IMG/VR virus record: IMGVR_UViG_3300043410_002484
Location: 1-36,975 of that record
Source: a virus
Direction: 5' to 3' (one strand)
DNA length: 36,975 nt
The notes under the pieces are model-generated. The model ran no database searches. It saw nothing but the letters and a program-made list of their open reading frames with translations, and had not been told where the DNA came from. The position numbers were made by a program, and so were the translations under genes. Positions 6,151-20,983 of this stretch are shown here, piece after piece. Each line of letters starts with the position of its first letter. Position 1 is the first letter of the stretch.

Positions 6151-7621
6151 ACTCGACGCGTTGAAGCTTCGGCTGATAGAGCGCTGGCGCGACGATCCAG
6201 TCCTCTACTGCCGCGAGCGACTCGGACTTGAGTTGGTCCCCGAACAAGAGCGCGTAGCTCTTGATGTTCGCGACAGCACCCACGTCGGTGTTCACTCGGG
6301 GCAGAAGACCGGCAAGTCGACGCTCGCGAACGGAATCGCCTGTTGGTGGTCCGAGACGCGCGAGAATGCGAACGCCATCATCACGAGCTCGACCGAGGAC
6401 CAGGTCAAGCTCATCAACTGGAAGGCGCTTCGCAAGCTAGTTGAGGCCGTCGCAAAGCTTCCGCGCGATCCGTCCAACTGGGTTGACGCAGCGATCGCGC
6501 AGCTTCCGTTCCCACGGTTGCCGCTCGATCCAAGTCTAGGGTTTGAATCGCCAATCACCGGGAACATGGTGATCGGTCGCGTCAGCGGCACGGCCGTCGG
6601 AACCCAGGGGTTCAGCGGTTCGAACCTGCTTATCATTGCCGATGAAGCCTCGGGTATCGACGAAGAGTTCTTCGCGGCCTTTGAGGGCAACAGCGCTGGC
6701 GGTGGTCGGCAGCTGTTACTCGGTAACCCAAACTTTACATCTGGCACGTTCTTCGATTGCGAACGCAAGTGCGTCGAGAACGGTGGTCTCTGGCGATTTC
6801 ATCGCCTCTCGAGCACGAACACGATCAATGCCCGCGAAGGGCGGATGGTCGTTCCTGGGCTCGCGCTGCGCGAGTGGTGCGAGGAGCGTCTCGCGGACTG
6901 GGGTGCTGACCATCCCGAATACCAGATCCGCGTGCTCGGTCGCCCGCCGGCGCAGGCGAGCAACTCGGTCATATCGCTCGCGGACGTCGAGCGCGCCATT
7001 GCGCGGTACGCAACCGCGAAACCCGATGGCCCGCTCAGCATAGGGGTTGACGTCGCTCGCTTCGGCGATGACGACAGCGTTGCGGCCCCTGTGCGCGGCT
7101 CGCTTTCGTGCCCAAGGCATCGGCGCAGCGGTTACGACTCGTTCCAAGTTGCCGAGATGGTCTTGGACCTCATCATTCGCGAGAAGCGCCTCGACGAGCC
7201 CTGCACGGTCATCGTGGACGTTGGCGGCGGTTACGGTGGCGGAGTCGTCGATCAGCTAGTCCGCATGATCGCCGCGCATGAACGCCGCGACATCAACGCT
7301 ATCGAAGTGATCTCGTTCAACGGCGCAGAGTCTGCTAGCGACGAAAGCTATGTCAACTGTCGCGACCAAGCGTGGTTTGCGATGGGCGAGTGGCTCAAGA
7401 CGACGGGAGCAATCCCGCGCGACGACAAGCTCGAAGGCGACATTCTCGCCCCGCGGTATCAGTTCGATGCCAAGGCGCGCCGCAAGGTTGAGCCGAAGAA
7501 GGACATCAAGAAACGACTGAAGCGCAGTCCAGATGACGGCGACGCGCTTGCGATCGCGCTGTGGGGTCGCAGCTCAGCAAGCCAATGGGTCATCGACCCG
7601 GAAGATCCTGACGAACACTGA
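6056..7621 (+). CDS. Terminase large subunit (packaging ATPase and nuclease)
   Basis: A 521-residue motor that pumps DNA into the prohead and cuts the concatemer. ATPase domain: Walker A-like HSGQKTGKST at residues 80-89 (K87), Walker B LLIIADEAS with D196 and E197, and the coupling motif GNP near 220. Nuclease domain (RNase H fold): first Asp in GVDVARFGDDDS (D332), a second acidic strand IVDVGGG near 387, and a final acidic motif DDGDALAIAL near 493. Length and motif order are standard. The start at 6056 lies inside the small terminase gene; a later start is possible, but the first residues (LLRLERLERQIDRI) look like genuine helix. Its stop overlaps the portal start (TGATG). Confidence 0.95.
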   Translation: MFESLLRLERLERQIDRILGPDEPAKSRESTELDALKLRLIERWRDDPVLYCRERLGLELVPEQERVALDVRDSTHVGVHSGQKTGKSTLANGIACWWSETRENANAIITSSTEDQVKLINWKALRKLVEAVAKLPRDPSNWVDAAIAQLPFPRLPLDPSLGFESPITGNMVIGRVSGTAVGTQGFSGSNLLIIADEASGIDEEFFAAFEGNSAGGGRQLLLGNPNFTSGTFFDCERKCVENGGLWRFHRLSSTNTINAREGRMVVPGLALREWCEERLADWGADHPEYQIRVLGRPPAQASNSVISLADVERAIARYATAKPDGPLSIGVDVARFGDDDSVAAPVRGSLSCPRHRRSGYDSFQVAEMVLDLIIREKRLDEPCTVIVDVGGGYGGGVVDQLVRMIAAHERRDINAIEVISFNGAESASDESYVNCRDQAWFAMGEWLKTTGAIPRDDKLEGDILAPRYQFDAKARRKVEPKKDIKKRLKRSPDDGDALAIALWGRSSASQWVIDPEDPDEH

Positions 7622-8982: not shown

Positions 8983-10062
8983 GTGAAGACGAAGAAGCAG
9001 GGCGCGCCTATGCCGCCCGAACAAGAGCCGTTGTCCGACGGCATCGTGCGCCGTTCGTTCGCCGTCGAGTTCAAGGCGGCGTCGATCGACAAGGCGAACC
9101 GCTCTGTGCGCGTCGTTGCCTCTACGGAAGCGCTCGACAGCCACGGTGAGAACGTCAAACAGAACTGGCGTCTCGAGCGGTTCAAAAAGAACCCAGTCGT
9201 TCTGTGGAACCACAACCGAAGCTCATTCTTCGGAGGTGATCCTGAGGATTACTTCCCTATTGGGCATGCATCAGACATCGCGGTTGGCTCAAGCCTAGAA
9301 GCTACGCTCAACTTCGTTGACGAGAAGGCAAACCCCATTGCAGAGCGCGTGTTCCAGGGCTTCAGCCAGGGCTCACTGCGAGCGGTGAGCGTTGGTTTTC
9401 GTCCCGGGAAAGTGACCGTAGAGCGCGACGCCGAAGGCGACGTGCTGTCGGTAATCCTAGACGACAACGAACTCTATGAAATCTCGGTCGTGCCCATGGG
9501 TTCGAACCCGGAAGCGGTCGCTCTGAGCGCCGAATTCAATGCCAAGGAGCGCGCCGCGCTCATCAAACGCGCGGAAGCGCTGACCACCAAGGACACCATG
9601 AAGCTGACTCTAGAAGAGTTGACGGCCAAACTGGCCGAGGCTGAGGCGGAGCGCGACAAGTTCAAGACTGCCGCCTCAACCTTCGAGACCCAAGTGATCG
9701 CCGAGAAGGCGCGCGCGGATGGTCTGCAAACCAAGCTTGCTGACGCCGAAAGGGCGCTCGGCATTGCAAACGAACAGATCGCAAAGGCCGCAACCAAGGC
9801 GATCTCCGACGACGTCGATGCGTTGATCGGGAAGAAACTGAAGCCGACGCAGCGTGAGGACTTCATCAAGCTGCGCACGAACAGTCTGGAACTGTTCAAG
9901 AGCGTCGTCGCAGGTCTCCCCGATCTGAAGCTCGACGAGTCGACGACGCCGCCGGATCCGAGTCCGACGGAGAACAAGTCCACAACCAAGCGCGCCCCCA
10001 GCACCCTGCTGAAGAACGCGCAAGCGGCTGGCGAAAAAGCTGCCAGCGAAGGAGCTAACTAA
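8983..10062 (+). CDS. HK97-type prohead protease fused to scaffold-like domain
   Basis: A 359-residue protein in two parts. Residues 20-190 match the S78 (HK97 gp4-type) maturation protease: the VVLWNHN strand carries the candidate catalytic His (H77), GSLRAVSVGF carries the candidate Ser (S136), and NELYEISVVPMGSNPEA closes the fold. Residues 205-359 are a long Ala/Glu/Lys coiled coil followed by a Pro/Ser/Thr-rich tail, typical of scaffold proteins that are digested after assembly. The GTG at 8983 is the first start after an in-frame stop at 8926-8928; an ATG at 9010 is an alternative. A 54-bp gap precedes it. An internal start near 9598 could release the scaffold alone. Confidence 0.9.
   Translation: MKTKKQGAPMPPEQEPLSDGIVRRSFAVEFKAASIDKANRSVRVVASTEALDSHGENVKQNWRLERFKKNPVVLWNHNRSSFFGGDPEDYFPIGHASDIAVGSSLEATLNFVDEKANPIAERVFQGFSQGSLRAVSVGFRPGKVTVERDAEGDVLSVILDDNELYEISVVPMGSNPEAVALSAEFNAKERAALIKRAEALTTKDTMKLTLEELTAKLAEAEAERDKFKTAASTFETQVIAEKARADGLQTKLADAERALGIANEQIAKAATKAISDDVDALIGKKLKPTQREDFIKLRTNSLELFKSVVAGLPDLKLDESTTPPDPSPTENKSTTKRAPSTLLKNAQAAGEKAASEGAN
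9589..9600 (+). promoter_or_regulatory. Candidate internal ribosome site and start for free scaffold
   Basis: AAGGA at 9589-9593 lies 4 nt before an in-frame ATG at 9598, exactly at the border between the protease fold and the coiled-coil region. Translation from here would give a ~154-residue scaffold protein, by analogy with lambda Nu3 made from within gene C. Confidence 0.4.
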
Positions 10063-10511
10063 TGTCCGATACTCGCCCACAGCAACGGCTGGACAAGCTC
10101 GACATTGGTGTTTACCAGGTCCAGGCAAGCAACACGGTTCGCAAGGGCTTTCCAGTCAAAGCCGGAACCGGTGACACGATCGTGGAGGCTGCTGCGGTTG
10201 GAGACAACATCATCGGCATCGCGCTCGAAGCTGGTAACGGAGACGCGACAGACAAGTACGGCACCGTTGGCACCGTGGGCCACACCATCAAGGTAGCTCG
10301 ACCCGGCCCTGGAGCAGTACCCGTGCTCGTCGGCACTGGCGGTGCAACCCGTGGGGCGCCGCTCAAGTGGGTCAGCGACGGCGTGACCAACGCAACGGTC
10401 GGCGGAGCCACCACCAAGCTCACGGTCATCGGTCAGGCCGAAGAGACCGGCGTCGCAGCGGACTTGATCTCCTGTGACCTATCCAAGTTCTCGTTCACGG
10501 TCGGCAGCTAA
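10062..10511 (+). CDS. Capsid decoration/stabilisation-like protein (DUF2190-like)
   Basis: A 149-residue, beta-rich, Gly/Val/Thr-rich protein with little charge in the centre. The pattern of short strands (VRKGFPVKAGTGDTIVEAA, IIGIALEAG) resembles DUF2190/head-decoration proteins that reinforce the capsid surface. Its position between protease/scaffold and major capsid is the usual one for lambda gpD-like or DUF2190 genes. The ATG overlaps the upstream stop by 1 bp (TAATG). The exact family should be treated as probable rather than certain. Confidence 0.7.
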   Translation: MSDTRPQQRLDKLDIGVYQVQASNTVRKGFPVKAGTGDTIVEAAAVGDNIIGIALEAGNGDATDKYGTVGTVGHTIKVARPGPGAVPVLVGTGGATRGAPLKWVSDGVTNATVGGATTKLTVIGQAEETGVAADLISCDLSKFSFTVGS

Positions 10512-10538
10512 GCCGGCGCACCCAGAGGAACACATCGA

Positions 10539-14453: not shown

Positions 14454-15947
14454 ATGCTGGTTCCCATTGGGTTTACAGGCTCGAGTAAAACGCCCGGCGC
14501 CGTCAGCGAAGTCCGTTACGGGCAAGGCTCAGGGACGATCGGGCAGTTCCCACGCATGCTCCTGCTCGTCGGGCACAAGGGCAGCACCAGCACGGTGGCG
14601 GACTACGCCGTCGAGCCAGTCACCGACGTGACGTCTGCGATCTCTCGCCTACAGGAGGGCTCCGAGCTCTCCGGCATGGTACGGATTGCGTGCAAGATGC
14701 CGGGCTTGCTAGTTTCGTACTGCGCTGTGCCTGAGCCTTCCGGAGGCACACAAGCGACAGCAACGATCACGATCGCCGGGGCGTGGACGCAGGGCGGATC
14801 GTGGGGCCTCGACCTCGACGATCACCACTTCGAAGTCCCGATCTACGCGAGTGACACGGTCACGACGGCGGCAGCCAATCTCGTTGCAGTTGTCGGCGCT
14901 GAGTACGACGTATTTTGCACCGCGTCGCAGTCGTCCGGAGTGGTCACCCTCACGGTCCGAAACAAGGGCGCACGCGGGAACGATCACACCATCTACGTCG
15001 ACAAGACGAACCTGCCATCGGGTGCGACCGTTACGGTTGCAGGAGGAACCGCGCTGAGCAATGGCGCTGTCCCATTCGCTTCGGGCGCTGGGACCGACAC
15101 GATCGCAACGATCCTGGCTGCTACCGCAGCGGCTCGCTACGACTACACCGCATGGGCGATGAACGAGGCGGCGAACGTCGACGACATCGCTGCGCAGACG
15201 GCCTCCAAGGCGGGTCCCTTTGGCCCCGGTCCCGAGAATGTGATCGTGGGTTTCCACGGCACCCTGAGCGCAGCCGGAACGCGGTCGCAGGTGATGAACC
15301 AACAGCTCTGCCAACTCGTGTGGCTAGAAGCGATCGTTCACCCGTCGAAGCTCGCGGCAGCCATGGGCGCGATGCGCAGCGTGGTCGAGGCGTCGCCCGT
15401 GACCGAACTCGGCAACCCCAACGCGCGCCACGACTTCACGGCGCTATTCGGCATTCCTCCGCACCGCAAGCCGGAGCATTCGCCCTCGCGCTCGCAGACG
15501 GATACGGCGCTCAATACGGGCGTCACCCCGATCATCACGCGCAACAGCCAGGCCGTGGTGCTCCGCTCAATCACCTCGCGCTCGCTCAATGGATCGCTGC
15601 CCGACTACAGCACGCTGGACACGGGTGATGCCGTCGTCCCCCAGCGCGTCCGAGAGGACAACGACGTCTGGTGGACAACCGAGCATGCGCCGAACAACCC
15701 ATACTGCGGACCAGATCTGCCGAGTGGAGACCTGCCGCCCGAGGGATTGTCGACGCCAAAGCTGGTGCTAACGCGGGTGAACGGTCGACTCGAAGAGCTC
15801 AAGCGCCTCAATCTGATCGCCAACGACAACGCGGCCGCGATCGCCGAATACAACACGACGCTGAAATGCATCGTGGTCAACATCCCGTGCAAGGTGACGA
15901 AGCAGAATCACCAATACGCCACGGTGATTCGCCAGATTGCTGGCTGA
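14454..15947 (+). CDS. Contractile tail sheath protein, Mu gpL-like
   Basis: A 497-residue subunit forming the sheath that contracts on infection. N-terminus (GFTGSSKTPGAVSEVRYGQG) and the following strand with LLLVGHKG match the Mu gpL type. A long Thr/Gly/Ala beta insertion domain (about 95-215) precedes the conserved body, which contains the IVGFHGTLSAAG strand, RHDFTALFGIPP near 325 and the C-terminal helix ERLNLIAND-type region followed by KCIVVNIPCKVTKQNH, the strand that interlocks neighbouring subunits. Directly followed by the tube gene, as in all contractile tails. It identifies the phage as a myovirus. Confidence 0.9.
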   Translation: MLVPIGFTGSSKTPGAVSEVRYGQGSGTIGQFPRMLLLVGHKGSTSTVADYAVEPVTDVTSAISRLQEGSELSGMVRIACKMPGLLVSYCAVPEPSGGTQATATITIAGAWTQGGSWGLDLDDHHFEVPIYASDTVTTAAANLVAVVGAEYDVFCTASQSSGVVTLTVRNKGARGNDHTIYVDKTNLPSGATVTVAGGTALSNGAVPFASGAGTDTIATILAATAAARYDYTAWAMNEAANVDDIAAQTASKAGPFGPGPENVIVGFHGTLSAAGTRSQVMNQQLCQLVWLEAIVHPSKLAAAMGAMRSVVEASPVTELGNPNARHDFTALFGIPPHRKPEHSPSRSQTDTALNTGVTPIITRNSQAVVLRSITSRSLNGSLPDYSTLDTGDAVVPQRVREDNDVWWTTEHAPNNPYCGPDLPSGDLPPEGLSTPKLVLTRVNGRLEELKRLNLIANDNAAAIAEYNTTLKCIVVNIPCKVTKQNHQYATVIRQIAG

Positions 15948-15957
15948 AGGGTAACGC

Positions 15958-16335
15958 ATGGCCGCACGCGTCACAGCGATCAAGATCTACTACACCGACC
16001 GCATGTGGGTCGACGCCACGAGCAACGACGCCAACATGCAGGGCGGTTCTGGGGTCGTGCAGACCGCCGGTGGCCCTGTCTCGCAAGATACCATTCAGGA
16101 GACGACGTTCTCCGTTGAGGGTGTCGTTCGTCGAGGCGCAGGCGTCACCAAGAACCTCATCCTCAAGTGGAAGAACAAGGAGTCTTTCCGCGTGACGATG
16201 GGCCCAGTCGATGACTGCACGCTGACCGCGATGTGCACGTTCGACTCGTTCAACGTGAAGTCGCAGCACACCGATGGATCCGCGACGTTCTCGGCAACCT
16301 TGCGCGTGACCAACGGCTCTCCGGACGTCGTGTGA
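15958..16335 (+). CDS. Tail tube protein, Mu gpM-like
   Basis: A 125-residue beta-rich protein of the size of Mu gpM. It shows the alternating-strand tube fold (TFSVEGVVRRGAGVTKNLILKW) and ends in FSATLRVTNGSP. It follows the sheath gene by 10 bp and its stop overlaps the tail-chaperone GTG (GTGA). It would form the inner tube through which DNA passes. The size and sheath-tube-chaperone order make the call strong even without a motif. Confidence 0.88.
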   Translation: MAARVTAIKIYYTDRMWVDATSNDANMQGGSGVVQTAGGPVSQDTIQETTFSVEGVVRRGAGVTKNLILKWKNKESFRVTMGPVDDCTLTAMCTFDSFNVKSQHTDGSATFSATLRVTNGSPDVV

Positions 16336-16919
16336 AGCTCGCGCAAGTAGACCCCGCGTCGACACCGACGCAACTGATCGATTTGCCGCTGTTTGGATCG
16401 GCGCAGAAGGTGCCGGTCGGCATCAGGCTACTCACGATCAGTGAGCGCTCTGGCGTCTACAAGCGGGCCAAAGCGAAGGCCAAAGAGCTCGGTGTTGAGA
16501 CGTGGTCTGACGAGGATCATGTCTGCGCGCTCGAGCTCTACGTCGAAACCGTCGCGGCCTGCACGTTCGACGGCGAAGAGGGGTCGTTCGAGCCATGGGC
16601 AACGGCTGACCAGCTTCGCAATGATCGATCGATTGGCCAGGACAGCCTTCTGTTCATCTACGAGGCATACGAGGCGTTTGAGCAGAAGCATTCGCTTCGT
16701 CCCGAAGATCTGCAGGGCGAGAACTTCCTCACCACTCTCCTGAAAGCAGGCGCGGGCGACCTCCGCCCTTTAGGGCGTATGCGGCGTGGCACGCTGGAGG
16801 CCTTTACGGCTATTTTGGCAAGCGAGCTGCTGAGCTCACAGATCGCGAAGTCCTCGAGTACCTCCAGCTCAGGATCGACTGCTGGATCCACGCCAATGAC
16901 TGCTGGCGCGACAGCGTGA
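16332..16919 (+). CDS. Tail assembly chaperone, zero-frame product (Mu gp41-like)
   Basis: A 195-residue product. The GTG at 16332 overlaps the tube stop and is preferred over an ATG at 16233 inside the tube gene. Residues 1-147 are compact alpha/beta and charged, whereas the last ~25 residues (SSSTSSSGSTAGST and on) are low-complexity Ser/Thr/Gly/Ala, as expected when ribosomes run past the proper coding frame. Genes between tube and tape measure commonly encode two chaperone forms related by frameshifting, which hold the tape measure during tail polymerisation. The C CCT TTA heptamer at codons 145-147 provides the shift. This is the form made without shifting. Confidence 0.8.
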   Translation: MKLAQVDPASTPTQLIDLPLFGSAQKVPVGIRLLTISERSGVYKRAKAKAKELGVETWSDEDHVCALELYVETVAACTFDGEEGSFEPWATADQLRNDRSIGQDSLLFIYEAYEAFEQKHSLRPEDLQGENFLTTLLKAGAGDLRPLGRMRRGTLEAFTAILASELLSSQIAKSSSTSSSGSTAGSTPMTAGATA

Positions 16920-16990
16920 AAGACCGCGAAGACAACGAAAAGCGCAACATCGGGCACCTGTTCGAGCAAGCGCTGCTACCCAAAAGTTAA
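16332..16990 (+). CDS. Tail assembly chaperone, -1 frameshift product (219 aa)
   Basis: Joined reading: 16332-16772 in the zero frame (147 codons), then 16772-16987 in the -1 frame (72 codons), stop TAA at 16988-16990. The -1 segment has no ATG start, so it was reachable only by frameshift. It reads as ordinary protein: aromatic and Gly-rich first (RAYAAWHAGGLYGYFGK), then an amphipathic helix (LTDREVLEYLQLRIDCWI) and a charged C-terminal helix ending LFEQALLPKS. Its stop lies 3 nt before the next gene, whereas the zero-frame stop would leave a 74-nt gap in an otherwise packed operon. This is the G-T type organisation known from lambda and other phages. Only the shift frequency is unknown. 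Confidence 0.82.
16766..16772 (+). other. Programmed -1 ribosomal frameshift heptamer C CCT TTA
   Basis: The heptamer has the X XXY YYZ form with codons CCT and TTA in the zero frame; a -1 slip re-pairs the tRNAs on CCC and TTT. A short GC hairpin, GCGT (16784-16787) with ACGC (16791-16794) and a 3-nt loop, begins 11 nt downstream and could act as a weak stimulator. Confidence 0.8.
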
Positions 16991-16993
16991 CCC

Positions 16994-17530
16994 GTGAAAC
17001 TCACGGAACAGAATCTAACGCTCCCGCGGGAGGCGCCCGGAACCATTTTGGTCGACCCGAGCGCTTGGACCAGTGAATGGGGCGATGCGCCCCGAGATCG
17101 CTCGATCTTGGGGCTTCGTCTCGTTTCAGCGACCGAACGCCATGAAGCCATTCGCTTGGCGCGCGAGCGCATCGGGGCTGGCGACAGCGAGTCTCCGGAT
17201 GCGGGCGAGGGTTTTGCCCTTGCGCTCATGCGCCTCTACGTGTGGTTCGGGGTTTGCGATCCGAACGACTGCAACCGCACGAGTGAGCTGATTCGGGACC
17301 CCGAACACGTGTTCTCGCGGCTCACCGAGTCGTGGGCTCGCCGCGTGTTCGACGCGATCCAAAAGCTGGAAGTCGAGAAGTCGGCGCAGTTTTTGGAAGC
17401 GACGGACGACGACCTTGTCGATCTCGTTGAGCGCCTTGGCACCGGAGAGATTGCGGAGCTCGAACCCGCGACCCAGTCGACAGTGCTTCGGCACCTGCGC
17501 TTCGCACTCGACGCCCTGCGCTCTAGTTGA
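16994..17530 (+). CDS. Hypothetical tail assembly protein
   Basis: A 178-residue, acidic, mostly helical protein starting at GTG 16994, 3 nt after the frameshift stop. It contains a helix-rich core (LALMRLYVWFGVCDP near 76-90) and acidic C-terminal helices (ATDDDLVDLVERLGTGEIAELEP). It lies where a second chaperone-like gene or tail accessory is expected, before the tape measure. No membrane segment or signal peptide. I do not recognise the family. Its end overlaps the end of a minus-strand ORF tail to tail. Confidence 0.6.
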   Translation: MKLTEQNLTLPREAPGTILVDPSAWTSEWGDAPRDRSILGLRLVSATERHEAIRLARERIGAGDSESPDAGEGFALALMRLYVWFGVCDPNDCNRTSELIRDPEHVFSRLTESWARRVFDAIQKLEVEKSAQFLEATDDDLVDLVERLGTGEIAELEPATQSTVLRHLRFALDALRSS

Positions 17531-17852
17531 GCAGGCGCTCAACTTCGACGCGGGCCTCACGCTGCTCGACCTGCACGGCGGAATCCTCGAGCTCGGGCAA
17601 CTCAATGCCTGCGACTGGGTAGCCGTTGGCGAGCAGCCTGGCCTTCGTTTCGAGCCAGTCGACGCGCTGCTCGACGAGATAGTGGTCACGCAGGCCCGGA
17701 TTGAGCCGTTGCTCTTGGAAGTGCAGCCGTTGCAGATGCGCCAGAGCATCCCTTCGCTCCACCAGCAAACTGACGGGGCCTGGGTCGCGATAGCTCGCTA
17801 CAGGCCGCAGGACGCGTAACAGGAGGGCGGCAGTGCGACGCAGCAGGCTCAT
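17523..17852 (-). CDS. Possible minus-strand hypothetical gene in the tail operon
   Basis: A 109-residue minus-strand frame with a regular ATG start at 17852. The product is Leu/Arg-rich, with a hydrophobic N-terminus (LLRRTAALLLRVLR) and charged amphipathic helices (DALAHLQRLHFQEQRLN, VDWLETKARLLANG). It meets the preceding + gene tail to tail with an 8-bp overlap. The + strand frame through the same bases (to 17819) is also open and has even higher GC at codon third position, but it lacks a start codon. I therefore slightly favour the minus-strand gene, with real doubt. No good promoter is visible upstream. Function unknown. Confidence 0.42.
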   Translation of the reverse strand: MSLLRRTAALLLRVLRPVASYRDPGPVSLLVERRDALAHLQRLHFQEQRLNPGLRDHYLVEQRVDWLETKARLLANGYPVAGIELPELEDSAVQVEQREARVEVERLLN

Positions 17853-17870: not shown

Positions 17871-18038
17871 GCCCGCTCGGCGGGCAAGCACTTGGCCTCG
17901 GGATGGCTCCGCGTCTCCCCCTCCCGCGCGCGAGCCGCCCGAGGCCATCTAGACCGCCCGCCGGCTCCGTGCGGGCTGCAGCCAACCTTCCTGAAGGCTG
18001 CAGCAAACGGGCAACTCGTTCGGGCGCGCGGTGCGCCC
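17871..18038 (+). other. Hairpin-rich leader upstream of the P63C gene
   Basis: Three inverted repeats occur in 168 bp that lack a convincing gene. (1) GCCCGC / GCGGGC, 17871-17885, 3-nt loop. (2) GCTGCAG at 17975-17981 with CTGCAGC at 17998-18004, enclosing an inner CCTTC / GAAGG stem. (3) GGGCGC / GCGCCC, 18022-18038, ending one base before the ribosome site of the next gene. None has a T-tract, so they are not classical terminators; attenuation, RNA processing or translation control are possible. The longer open frame starting at 17903 through this stretch is Arg/Pro/Ala low-complexity and is not believed. Confidence 0.55.
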
Positions 18039-18052
18039 AGGAAGGTAGAACT

Positions 18053-18814
18053 GTGTCTGATTCGAAGATCGTTTACCTAGAAGGCTACAGAGTCAGTGCC
18101 GAAGGGCGTGTGCGCGATGTCGAGCTCGCCGAAAAGCTTGGTTCGCCGTTGCGTGCGCTTCGGCGTCTGATTGCTGCAAACACAGAAGAGCTCAATGATT
18201 ACGGAGTTTTGCCGTTAAACGGCGGCCTCGCGGCCGGCTCCGGAGACCATGGCCAAGGTGGGCGCCCGTCGCGGGGCTGCTACTGGCTCAACCGCGAACA
18301 GGCACTCTTATTGTGCACTTGGAGCCAGGCGCCAAAGGCCCGCGCAATCCGCGCCGAGATCGTCCGGGTCCTCACCGCCGTTCTCGACGGTCTGCAGTTC
18401 AAAGGTGAAGTCCCCTGGATCGCACGGGTCCTCTTCTTGGAAGCACCCGCTGACTGGGAGCGAATGTGGCCAGACACCTTCGTGCAGGCCGTCTGCAAAC
18501 TGAAGGGTCAGCAGTTCACCGGACAGCAACCCGGTGGCTGGATGGGCAAGGTTTACGGAGACATCTACCGGTTGCTGTTGGGTGACCGCGTCTACGACAC
18601 CATCCGCGAACTGAACCCGAATCCCAAGCGTGGGTCCAATCATCACCAGCGACTTCGCGAAGAAGCGCGCGCTCGGGTGAACGAGCAGATCGAAGGCATC
18701 ACGGCGCTCGCCAACACAAGCATCACGTTCGCCGAGTTCATGTCGAAAATGAAGCACGTCTATCGGGGCGCGCCGCTGCAGCTCGGGTTCTGGGCTGCCA
18801 ACAAATCAAACTGA
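18053..18814 (+). CDS. P63C-domain phage protein
   Basis: A 253-residue protein. The GTG at 18053 is chosen because AGGAAGG (18039-18045) lies 7 nt upstream; a frame from 17903 would have a low-complexity N-terminus. Residues 130-235 match the P63C pattern: DWERMWPDTFVQAVCKL, then a GWMGKVYGDIYRLL segment, LNPNPKRGSNHHQRL with the His-rich turn, and a final helix ending in FMSKMKHVYR. The N-terminal part (about 20-120, ending CYWLNREQALLLCTWS) resembles the DNA-binding/antirepressor portion often joined to P63C or Rha-type domains. P63C proteins occur in phages and mobile elements, with unknown function, often near regulators. Its position just before the tape measure is unusual and suggests an inserted accessory gene. 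Confidence 0.8.
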   Translation: MSDSKIVYLEGYRVSAEGRVRDVELAEKLGSPLRALRRLIAANTEELNDYGVLPLNGGLAAGSGDHGQGGRPSRGCYWLNREQALLLCTWSQAPKARAIRAEIVRVLTAVLDGLQFKGEVPWIARVLFLEAPADWERMWPDTFVQAVCKLKGQQFTGQQPGGWMGKVYGDIYRLLLGDRVYDTIRELNPNPKRGSNHHQRLREEARARVNEQIEGITALANTSITFAEFMSKMKHVYRGAPLQLGFWAANKSN

Positions 18815-20983
18815 ATGGCAGACGAAGCAATCAAGATCACGATCGGCGCGGTCAAGACGGCCAGCGTCGATCGCGTCTTCGACAGCATTCGGCGCCAAGC
18901 CGCGCGCATCGGGCAGGATCTGAATCGCTTCCTCGACCCCAAGAAGGCGCTCAAGGGCATCACGCTCTACAAGGACGAGATCACGGCTGCCGCCGGCGCC
19001 GTGCGCGCCCAGCGCGAGCGAATTCGTCAGGTCTACACCGACGAAGAGCGCGCTCAGCGTCGCGTCCAGCGCGAGCGCGAGAAGTCCGAGCGATTCGTTC
19101 ACACGTTGCGGATGCGTCAGCTGGGAGAAGAGAGTAGAGCGCGCACGCGTGAGGAGAGCCGAGCCGCTAGAGAGTCTGCATCGCGCATCCAGCGCTATGC
19201 CCGGATGACCTCGTGGCAAGCGGCTCGATCCTTCGGGCATGGGCTCAACGCTGGACGTCGCTTCCTCGGCGAGATCGGACGCGGCATCGGTCTAGATCTC
19301 ACGCCCGCAACCTACCTGCAGCAGGCGATTGCGACCCAGTCGGCAGCGATCAAGCTTTCGAACGCGGGCTACATGCCCGGCAGCGCTCGCAACGGCGAGA
19401 TGGTGCCAGCGTCAGTGCTGCAAAGCGAGGCACTGGACACGGCTCGTAGCCTGAAGGGCACGATCACGGCCGACCAGGTGCTTGCTGGCCAAGAGCAGTA
19501 CCAGAAGCGCACAGGCGACCTGCGAGACACGCGCGACATGCGCGGCGAGCTGTCACGCCTTGCGGTCGCCACCGGCTCGGACGCGGCAAGCCTGTTCGGC
19601 ACAGCGGGGGAGCTCGCCAACCAGTTCAAGGACGTCTCTCCGGAGGAACGTCGGAAGACCATTTCGGACCTGCTCCGCACATTCGCGCGGCAAGGCCAAG
19701 AGGGGGCTGTTGAGCTCGAGGACCTCTCCAAGTACGGGGCGCGCATCGCGGCGAGCGCAGGCCTTTACGAGGGCGACAAGGGCGACATCATCAAGTCGCT
19801 TGGAGCGATCGGTCAAGCCGCTCGTTCATTCGGCGGAGCCGACTCTGCAGCCCAAGCGGCAACATCCGTGTCGCGTCTAGCGACTACGTTCAAGACGGGG
19901 GCGCGCGCCAAAGAGTTCCAGGCGATCACTGGCAAGTCGGTGTTCTCCGAGTCCGGCAAAATTCGCAACCCCGTCGAGCTAATCAAAGAGGCTCTCGTGG
20001 CCACTCAGGGCGATCCGCTCAAGTGGAATAAGATCTTCATGAACGTCATGTCCGAGCGCGCCGCGGGCGGCCTCGGGTCGAAGTATCGGGAAGCGTACGA
20101 AAAGGCGGGCGGCGGAGAATCCGGCAAGGCCGCAGGACTCAAGGCCATCGACGAATTCTTGGCGTCGATGAAGCAGGCACAGATCGGCGAGAGCGAGATC
20201 CAGCAGAAGATAGATCAGGTCTCTCAGGGATACGAGGCGCAGGTTAACGACCTGAACACCACATTCCAGGGGATCGCTACCGAGTTCCTGCACGAGTTCC
20301 TCCCTGCACTCAAAGAAGTTGCGCCATCGCTCAAAGGCCTCGCCACGTTTCTCGGCAAGACCGCGATCATGGCCATCGAGCACCCGCTCTTGGCGCTCGG
20401 CGCGGGAGTCACGGCTTCGTTGGCCAAGGCTGGCATCGAGACGGCGTTCCGCGCTGGCGTAGAGCGCATGTTCATGGGCAGCAATGAGTTGCTGCTCAAA
20501 AAGCTGGCAGAGTTGGCCGCCGGTGGCGGCGTGCCAGACAGGCCACCGGGCGCCATCGTACCTGGCGGTGGCGGCAGAAAGCTGCCGTTCATCGGGTTGG
20601 GTATTGCGCCAGCTGCACTCGCAGTCGCGGCCGGATTGCTGGCTCCGGATTCATCAGATACCGAACTCTCTCCCGAGCAACGCGCCGCTAAAGCGAAGGC
20701 CACCGCCGATCAACGGTTGCAGGGGATCTTGCAAGGTGGAGATCGGGAATCACTCTCCAGTGAATTCGGAGCCCGCATCAGCCGACAGGTGTTTCTCGAG
20801 GACCGCGTCAAGTCAGACACGGCTGCGGCAGCAGCCGGAAACCAAGGCGCCGGAGTTCGTGCCGAAGCCTACTCAAAGGAGTTGGCCGAGAACAAGGCGG
20901 CCCTCCAAGAACTCACGCGCGCGTTGCGCGGCATCGCAAACGATCGCGGCCTGACGACTCAAGCGGGCGGCGCAAACCGCTAG
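18815..20983 (+). CDS. Tail tape measure protein
   Basis: A 722-residue protein that sets tail length and is ejected with DNA. The N-terminal 130 residues form a long charged coiled coil (with RAQRERIRQVYTDEERAQRR). The central part (about 190-470) is helical and carries Gly/Ala patches. Two hydrophobic stretches, about 505-540 (AIMAIEHPLLALGAGVTASL) and 590-615 (FIGLGIAPAALAVAAGLLA), are typical membrane-insertion segments of tape measures. At about 0.15 nm per residue the length predicts a tail of roughly 108 nm. It starts directly after the P63C stop (TGA then ATG). The gene order, with hub genes following, is that of Mu-like phages. Confidence 0.92.
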   Translation: MADEAIKITIGAVKTASVDRVFDSIRRQAARIGQDLNRFLDPKKALKGITLYKDEITAAAGAVRAQRERIRQVYTDEERAQRRVQREREKSERFVHTLRMRQLGEESRARTREESRAARESASRIQRYARMTSWQAARSFGHGLNAGRRFLGEIGRGIGLDLTPATYLQQAIATQSAAIKLSNAGYMPGSARNGEMVPASVLQSEALDTARSLKGTITADQVLAGQEQYQKRTGDLRDTRDMRGELSRLAVATGSDAASLFGTAGELANQFKDVSPEERRKTISDLLRTFARQGQEGAVELEDLSKYGARIAASAGLYEGDKGDIIKSLGAIGQAARSFGGADSAAQAATSVSRLATTFKTGARAKEFQAITGKSVFSESGKIRNPVELIKEALVATQGDPLKWNKIFMNVMSERAAGGLGSKYREAYEKAGGGESGKAAGLKAIDEFLASMKQAQIGESEIQQKIDQVSQGYEAQVNDLNTTFQGIATEFLHEFLPALKEVAPSLKGLATFLGKTAIMAIEHPLLALGAGVTASLAKAGIETAFRAGVERMFMGSNELLLKKLAELAAGGGVPDRPPGAIVPGGGGRKLPFIGLGIAPAALAVAAGLLAPDSSDTELSPEQRAAKAKATADQRLQGILQGGDRESLSSEFGARISRQVFLEDRVKSDTAAAAAGNQGAGVRAEAYSKELAENKAALQELTRALRGIANDRGLTTQAGGANR

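Follow-up and report, generated by a model that had tools for sequence, protein, structure and literature searches.

A probable programmed -1 ribosomal frameshift in the tail chaperone gene of a phage with a Mu-like tail module

The sequence under study is an IMG/VR virus record of 36,975 bases, which at its full length is called the window here. Its tail module is Mu-like, with a sheath (phrog_165), hub genes (phrog_184/177), DNA_circ_N and a GpP-like gene, while the left part of the phage carries a primase, a DnaB-like helicase, a terminase, a portal and a head maturation protease of non-Mu families. On the + strand, the tail sheath gene (14454-15947, phrog_165 with E 2.6e-45) is followed by a probable tail tube gene (15958-16335, + strand) that has no family match and was assigned from its position and size between sheath and chaperone. 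The flanking sheath and chaperone are 59% and 63% identical between the window and the related contig L003; by eye, the tube protein is far more divergent, a sign of rapid evolution or of an exchanged module. Next come the tail assembly chaperone gene G (16332-16919, + strand), a second chaperone gene, G' (16994-17530, + strand), and two further genes. Inside the tail operon, between G' and the tape measure, a 109-aa ORF runs on the opposite strand (17523-17852, - strand); it is 71% identical in L003 and has no family match above the cut-off. Also located between the chaperones and the tape measure is a regulator-like gene at 17903-18814, present in L003 at 9732-10529, whose domain type differs per relative: P63C with a weak Rha match in the window, and a P22_AR_N antirepressor in L003. 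The probable tape measure protein of 722 aa follows (18815-20983, + strand); it also has no family match, is 67% identical in L003, and was assigned from its length and its position before the DNA_circ_N and hub genes. By these assignments from position and size, G lies between the probable major tail protein and the probable tape measure, as the gpG/gpGT type of chaperone requires.

G encodes a 0-frame product of 195 aa, beginning at a GTG codon (16332) that overlaps the stop of the tail tube ORF and ending at 16919. The slippery heptamer C CCT TTA (16766-16772, + strand) is situated in its 3' part, a feature expected of gpG/gpGT-type chaperones. The codon context CGC CCT TTA places it in the X XXY YYZ phase, and it is the sole in-phase XXXYYYZ anywhere in G. 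Between 16682 and 16990 the -1 frame has no stop, which takes it past the 0-frame stop and on to the next gene. A shift at the heptamer would give access to the T segment of this frame (16772-16990, + strand), which comprises 72 residues, including an Arg from AGG at 16772, plus a stop. The resulting GT fusion would have 219 aa, with 147 residues from G and 72 from T. Only 3 nt separate the end of the -1 stop (16990) from the GTG of G' (16994). Past the slip, the 0-frame C-terminal tail of G (16773-16919, + strand) is Ser/Thr/Ala-rich, of low complexity and weakly conserved. A first-pass annotation of this DNA had described a correctly phased C CCT TTA, a 72-residue -1 protein ending 3 nt ahead of the next gene and a low-complexity zero-frame tail, and all of these were found again here. 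It had also described the -1 frame as devoid of a start codon, which is nearly exact: the lone ATG, GTG or TTG in that frame is the GTG at 16916, which would yield just 24 residues.

Direct homologs of G were found neither in phage records searched with tblastn nor in GTDB genome contigs, and G had no match in Pfam (E up to 1), PHROGs or PDB sequences. The usable relatives, found via two-sequence alignments and the sheath, all came from IMG/VR: L003/L004 (one gene sequence in two samples, 63% identical to G), L002 (63% identical, on a contig that ends before the slip) and L023 (39% identical). The comparison of frames and heptamers rests on three independent sequences, namely the window, L003/L004 and L023. 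CCCTTTA is present in L003 (8441-8447) and in L023 (6814-6820), in phase and encoding the same Pro-Leu dipeptide as in the window. A 32-nt block around the slip differs by one base between the window and L003, and CCCTTTAG followed by GTATGCGGC is kept in all three sequences. Directly past the slip, several residues (YAA..A.GL) are invariant, and this is the best conserved part of T. The -1 frame extends as far as G' without a stop in all three sequences; stops breaking this frame in relatives, which the first-pass annotation had named as contrary evidence, were looked for and did not occur. In L023 a -1 stop is located 7 nt before the heptamer (the frame is open from 6808, the heptamer starts at 6814), so that the shift cannot be earlier there.

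Which frame is under selection was determined with a substitution test, in which the observed substitutions were compared with the same ones placed randomly on matching bases, and the translations of all frames were scored with BLOSUM62. Between the window and L003, the 0 frame was protected before the slip, with z values of 6.0 (16587-16691) and 4.1 (16692-16766), and the -1 frame was unprotected (z -2.1 and -2.7). Past the slip, z for the -1 frame was 3.8 within the overlap and 4.7 overall, and the 0 frame was hardly protected (z 1.4 and 1.3). Scanning the same pair placed the best switch point at about 16752-16791, an interval with the heptamer inside. Comparison of the window with L023 gave 0-frame z values of 3.0 to 5.3 before the slip and about 0 after it; the -1 frame after the slip scored z 2.1 to 2.6 (34 and 49 codons) and 1.4 over the first 25 codons. 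The last 24 residues of T, past the 0-frame stop, are weakly conserved (z 0.95). Protection passes from the 0 frame to the -1 frame at the heptamer, and the -1 frame beyond it is under selection at the protein level. The slip site, the open frame, the conservation of both and this change of constrained frame are direct observations.

That ribosomes shift here, and how often they do so, we infer. Judged by the comparison of sequences, it is highly probable that standard -1 programmed ribosomal frameshifting makes both G (195 aa) and GT (219 aa), according to the gpG/gpGT tail-chaperone strategy. The first-pass annotation had proposed the same, and the conservation of the heptamer and the frame switch strongly support it. 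Further support comes from the genomic order of sheath, tube, G and, further downstream, tape measure, and from the predicted fold of the paralog G', which is like that of known tail chaperones. Most ribosomes would stay in frame 0 through G and produce the 195-aa protein. In a minority, the tRNA-Pro and tRNA-Leu paired with CCU and UUA of C CCT TTA would both slip one base back, so that Pro is paired on CCC and Leu on UUU. Translation would then continue in the -1 frame to yield the 219-aa GT fusion. The A-site move from UUA to UUU is the same as that in the HIV-1 U UUU UUA site. If the system works as in lambda, the G part common to both products would bind the tape measure protein, while T would recruit the tail tube subunit, so that the tube polymerises around the tape measure.

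A tentative candidate for a stimulator is a hairpin immediately 3' of the heptamer (16773-16837, + strand), the main stem of which begins 8 nt past the heptamer. All three sequences are compatible with it, and 8 of the 18 pairs in the consensus structure are changed on both sides. This three-way consensus performed well against column and slide controls, but an equally good fold was obtained for 29 of the 157 other three-way coding windows. Since the hairpin is not exceptional by this standard, we do not claim it as a stimulator and keep it as a lead. Single-sequence folds of the RNA downstream of the heptamer were not significant. Shine-Dalgarno-like matches upstream of it were weak and differently placed among the relatives, with none consistent.

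A heptamer is on its own not rare, and its presence is hence not decisive. The main genes, with 11,108 codons, contain 38 in-phase XXXYYYZ heptamers, which corresponds to a chance expectation of 0.27 per 79-codon overlap, or about 0.10 if YYY is restricted to AAA/TTT. If G were the only product, with a heptamer present by coincidence and a -1 frame that GC-rich DNA happens to leave open, this expectation and the failure to find a strong stimulator would both fit. We consider such a coincidence highly improbable because the heptamer, with its rare codon, is conserved in three lineages and the -1 protein sequence is selected after the slip. It is the exact conservation of the heptamer in the relatives that takes the site beyond chance. 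Of 700 Leu codons in the sampled genes of the window, 6 are TTA (0.9%), as are 8 of 231 in L003 (3.5%) and 1 of 93 in L023 (1.1%); since it is so rare, its retention is unlikely to be mere codon choice. A frame change within a gene is a usual sign of an indel error, and the two frames could in principle belong to a single gene that was split by a mistake in sequencing or assembly, or by mutation to a pseudogene. We give this explanation barely any credence, since the two-frame layout and the slip site recur in contigs of three other samples (63% and 39% identity) and the 0 frame remains open for at least about 48 codons past the slip in all three.

Two further explanations accept that T is translated and differ in how its frame is entered. 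The 0-frame TGA of the window overlaps the -1 frame GTG in the sequence GTGA (16916-16919), where termination followed by reinitiation might produce the T segment separately. Reinitiation at this site would give a product of only 24 residues, leaving YAA..A.GL, the best conserved part of T, unexplained along with the conserved heptamer and the change of constrained frame there. In L003, moreover, the 0-frame stop is TAA and no GTG is found at that place, and we regard this route as very unlikely. The -1 and +2 frames are identical, and comparison alone places the switch to about 40 nt, so the same frame could also be entered by a +2 shift, by slippage during transcription or by a slip elsewhere in the gene. 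Within the mapped interval the heptamer is the invariant element, G has no second in-phase XXXYYYZ, and there is no long A or T run on which a polymerase could slip; the chance that one of these routes is used is accordingly slight. From the sequence evidence as a whole, the -1 frameshift at C CCT TTA is very probably real and belongs to a well-known kind of system.

G' directly follows T in all three relatives, and the T stop and G' start overlap (ATGA, GTGA) or lie 3 nt apart; these junctions are at 7044-7047 in L023, 8665-8668 in L003 and 16988-16996 in the window. Such close junctions may couple G' translation to the ribosomes that have shifted frame. Comparison of G with G' by hhalign gave a probability of 87% over 154 columns and a score of 43.8; none of 100 column shuffles scored above 23.2 and a reversed version scored 16.5, which identifies G' as a paralog of G. 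The AlphaFold model of G' (pLDDT 70, pTM 0.58) had as its best solved match the HK97 tail assembly chaperone 2ob9 (Z 8.9, 96 residues, rmsd 6.3, 14% identity), followed by YqbN 3klu (Z 6.5). Among predicted viral structures in BFVD, its best named matches were tail assembly chaperones (E 0.01 to 0.04). Foldseek alone returned nothing significant for this model against the PDB. We take these matches as moderate support for a chaperone-like predicted fold in G'. The predicted structure of G itself (pLDDT 42) was too poor and was not used.

No T-like frameshift extension of G' was seen; the operon encodes two tandem chaperones, only the first of which is frameshift-extended. This tandem paralogous chaperone is the most unusual feature here, and a literature search on duplicated tandem tail chaperones returned nothing on point. 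We lean slightly towards the view that this contractile-tail lineage has two tandem paralogous chaperones of a family absent from Pfam and PHROGs, with only the first -1-extended, and that its tape measure is coated by a three-part set (G, GT and G') and not by the usual two. The paralog would offer a testable variation on tape measure chaperoning. Near the G' start, at 17021-17037 in the window, we also noted CTCCCGCGGGAGGCGCC, which contains a 12-nt palindrome. Its letters are unchanged across the window, L003 and L023, although protein identity is 46%, and it is possibly an RNA or DNA regulatory element or the result of dual constraint.

Mu is among the closest known systems. Its frameshift is annotated as a verified -2 shift (Mu gp41; PMC5009743). 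Like G, gp41/FS-gp41 of Mu is placed after sheath and tube and is extended by a frameshift. Unlike in G, the +1/-2 frame of Mu and its close relatives continues without a stop up to the tape measure gene, as was the case in all five gp41 relatives that we compared (Pasteurella Pmp9, Alteromonadaceae B23, Vibrio 1.028.O, Shewanella MuM16-2 and Vibrio martha 12B12). In the window the +1/-2 frame becomes open just 19 nt ahead of the stop of G and continues for 82 nt beyond the next start; the L003 frame ends 13 nt after G. This layout does not fit a Mu-like -2 frameshift for G, which calls for a +1 frame open to the next gene. The two chaperones also lack detectable homology: the profile comparison of G with Mu gp41 (PF10109, Phage_TAC_7) gave an hhalign score of 18.2, within the column-shuffle range of a similar comparison (maximum 23.2). 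Kinship of G with gp41 is unsupported, with a score no better than shuffled controls and no Pfam match.

The first-pass annotation had regarded a -1 shift as notable in a Mu-type tail. The tail module is indeed Mu-like and the Mu shift is -2, but the phage is otherwise not Mu and G shows no gp41 homology. In addition, a chaperone with a -1 extension and an in-phase heptamer is seen in Serratia phage BZS1 (T TTT TTA) and in Chromohalobacter phage YPCBV-1 (T TTT TTG), both of which have Mu-type tails, so the -1 shift in such a tail is not unique. Their heptamers are unlike C CCT TTA, and a single chaperone gene is annotated in each. These apparent extensions are unannotated (L025 2166-2375 in YPCBV-1, L026 2092-2268 in BZS1), and the T frame of YPCBV-1 is annotated as a separate hypothetical protein. 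Burkholderia phage KS10 was reported to lack a frameshift (PMC2628397). We observed in KS10 (L027 2471-2707) that the +1/-2 frame is open from within the chaperone gene to the tape measure start, as in Mu. The direction of the shift would seem not to be fixed among Mu-type tails.

The present case adds a -1 frameshift with comparative support, in a chaperone family new to Pfam and PHROGs. Standard annotation misses this family entirely, as it has no Pfam or PHROGs match and its second frame is start-less. Known systems of this kind include gp13/gp14 of HK97, likewise a -1 extended tail chaperone, whose 2ob9 structure is the best fold match of G'; HK97 is a siphophage, its slip region is another one, and identity is 14%. 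In lambda, -1 slippage yields the minor product gpGT with a C-terminal T domain, in which G binds the tape measure and T binds the tail tube protein (PMC5009743). G and GT have the same arrangement as gpG and gpGT. The two systems differ in heptamer sequence and in tail type, here a contractile Mu-type tail, and no sequence similarity between them was found; in the window, a second chaperone paralog and two further genes also stand before the tape measure.
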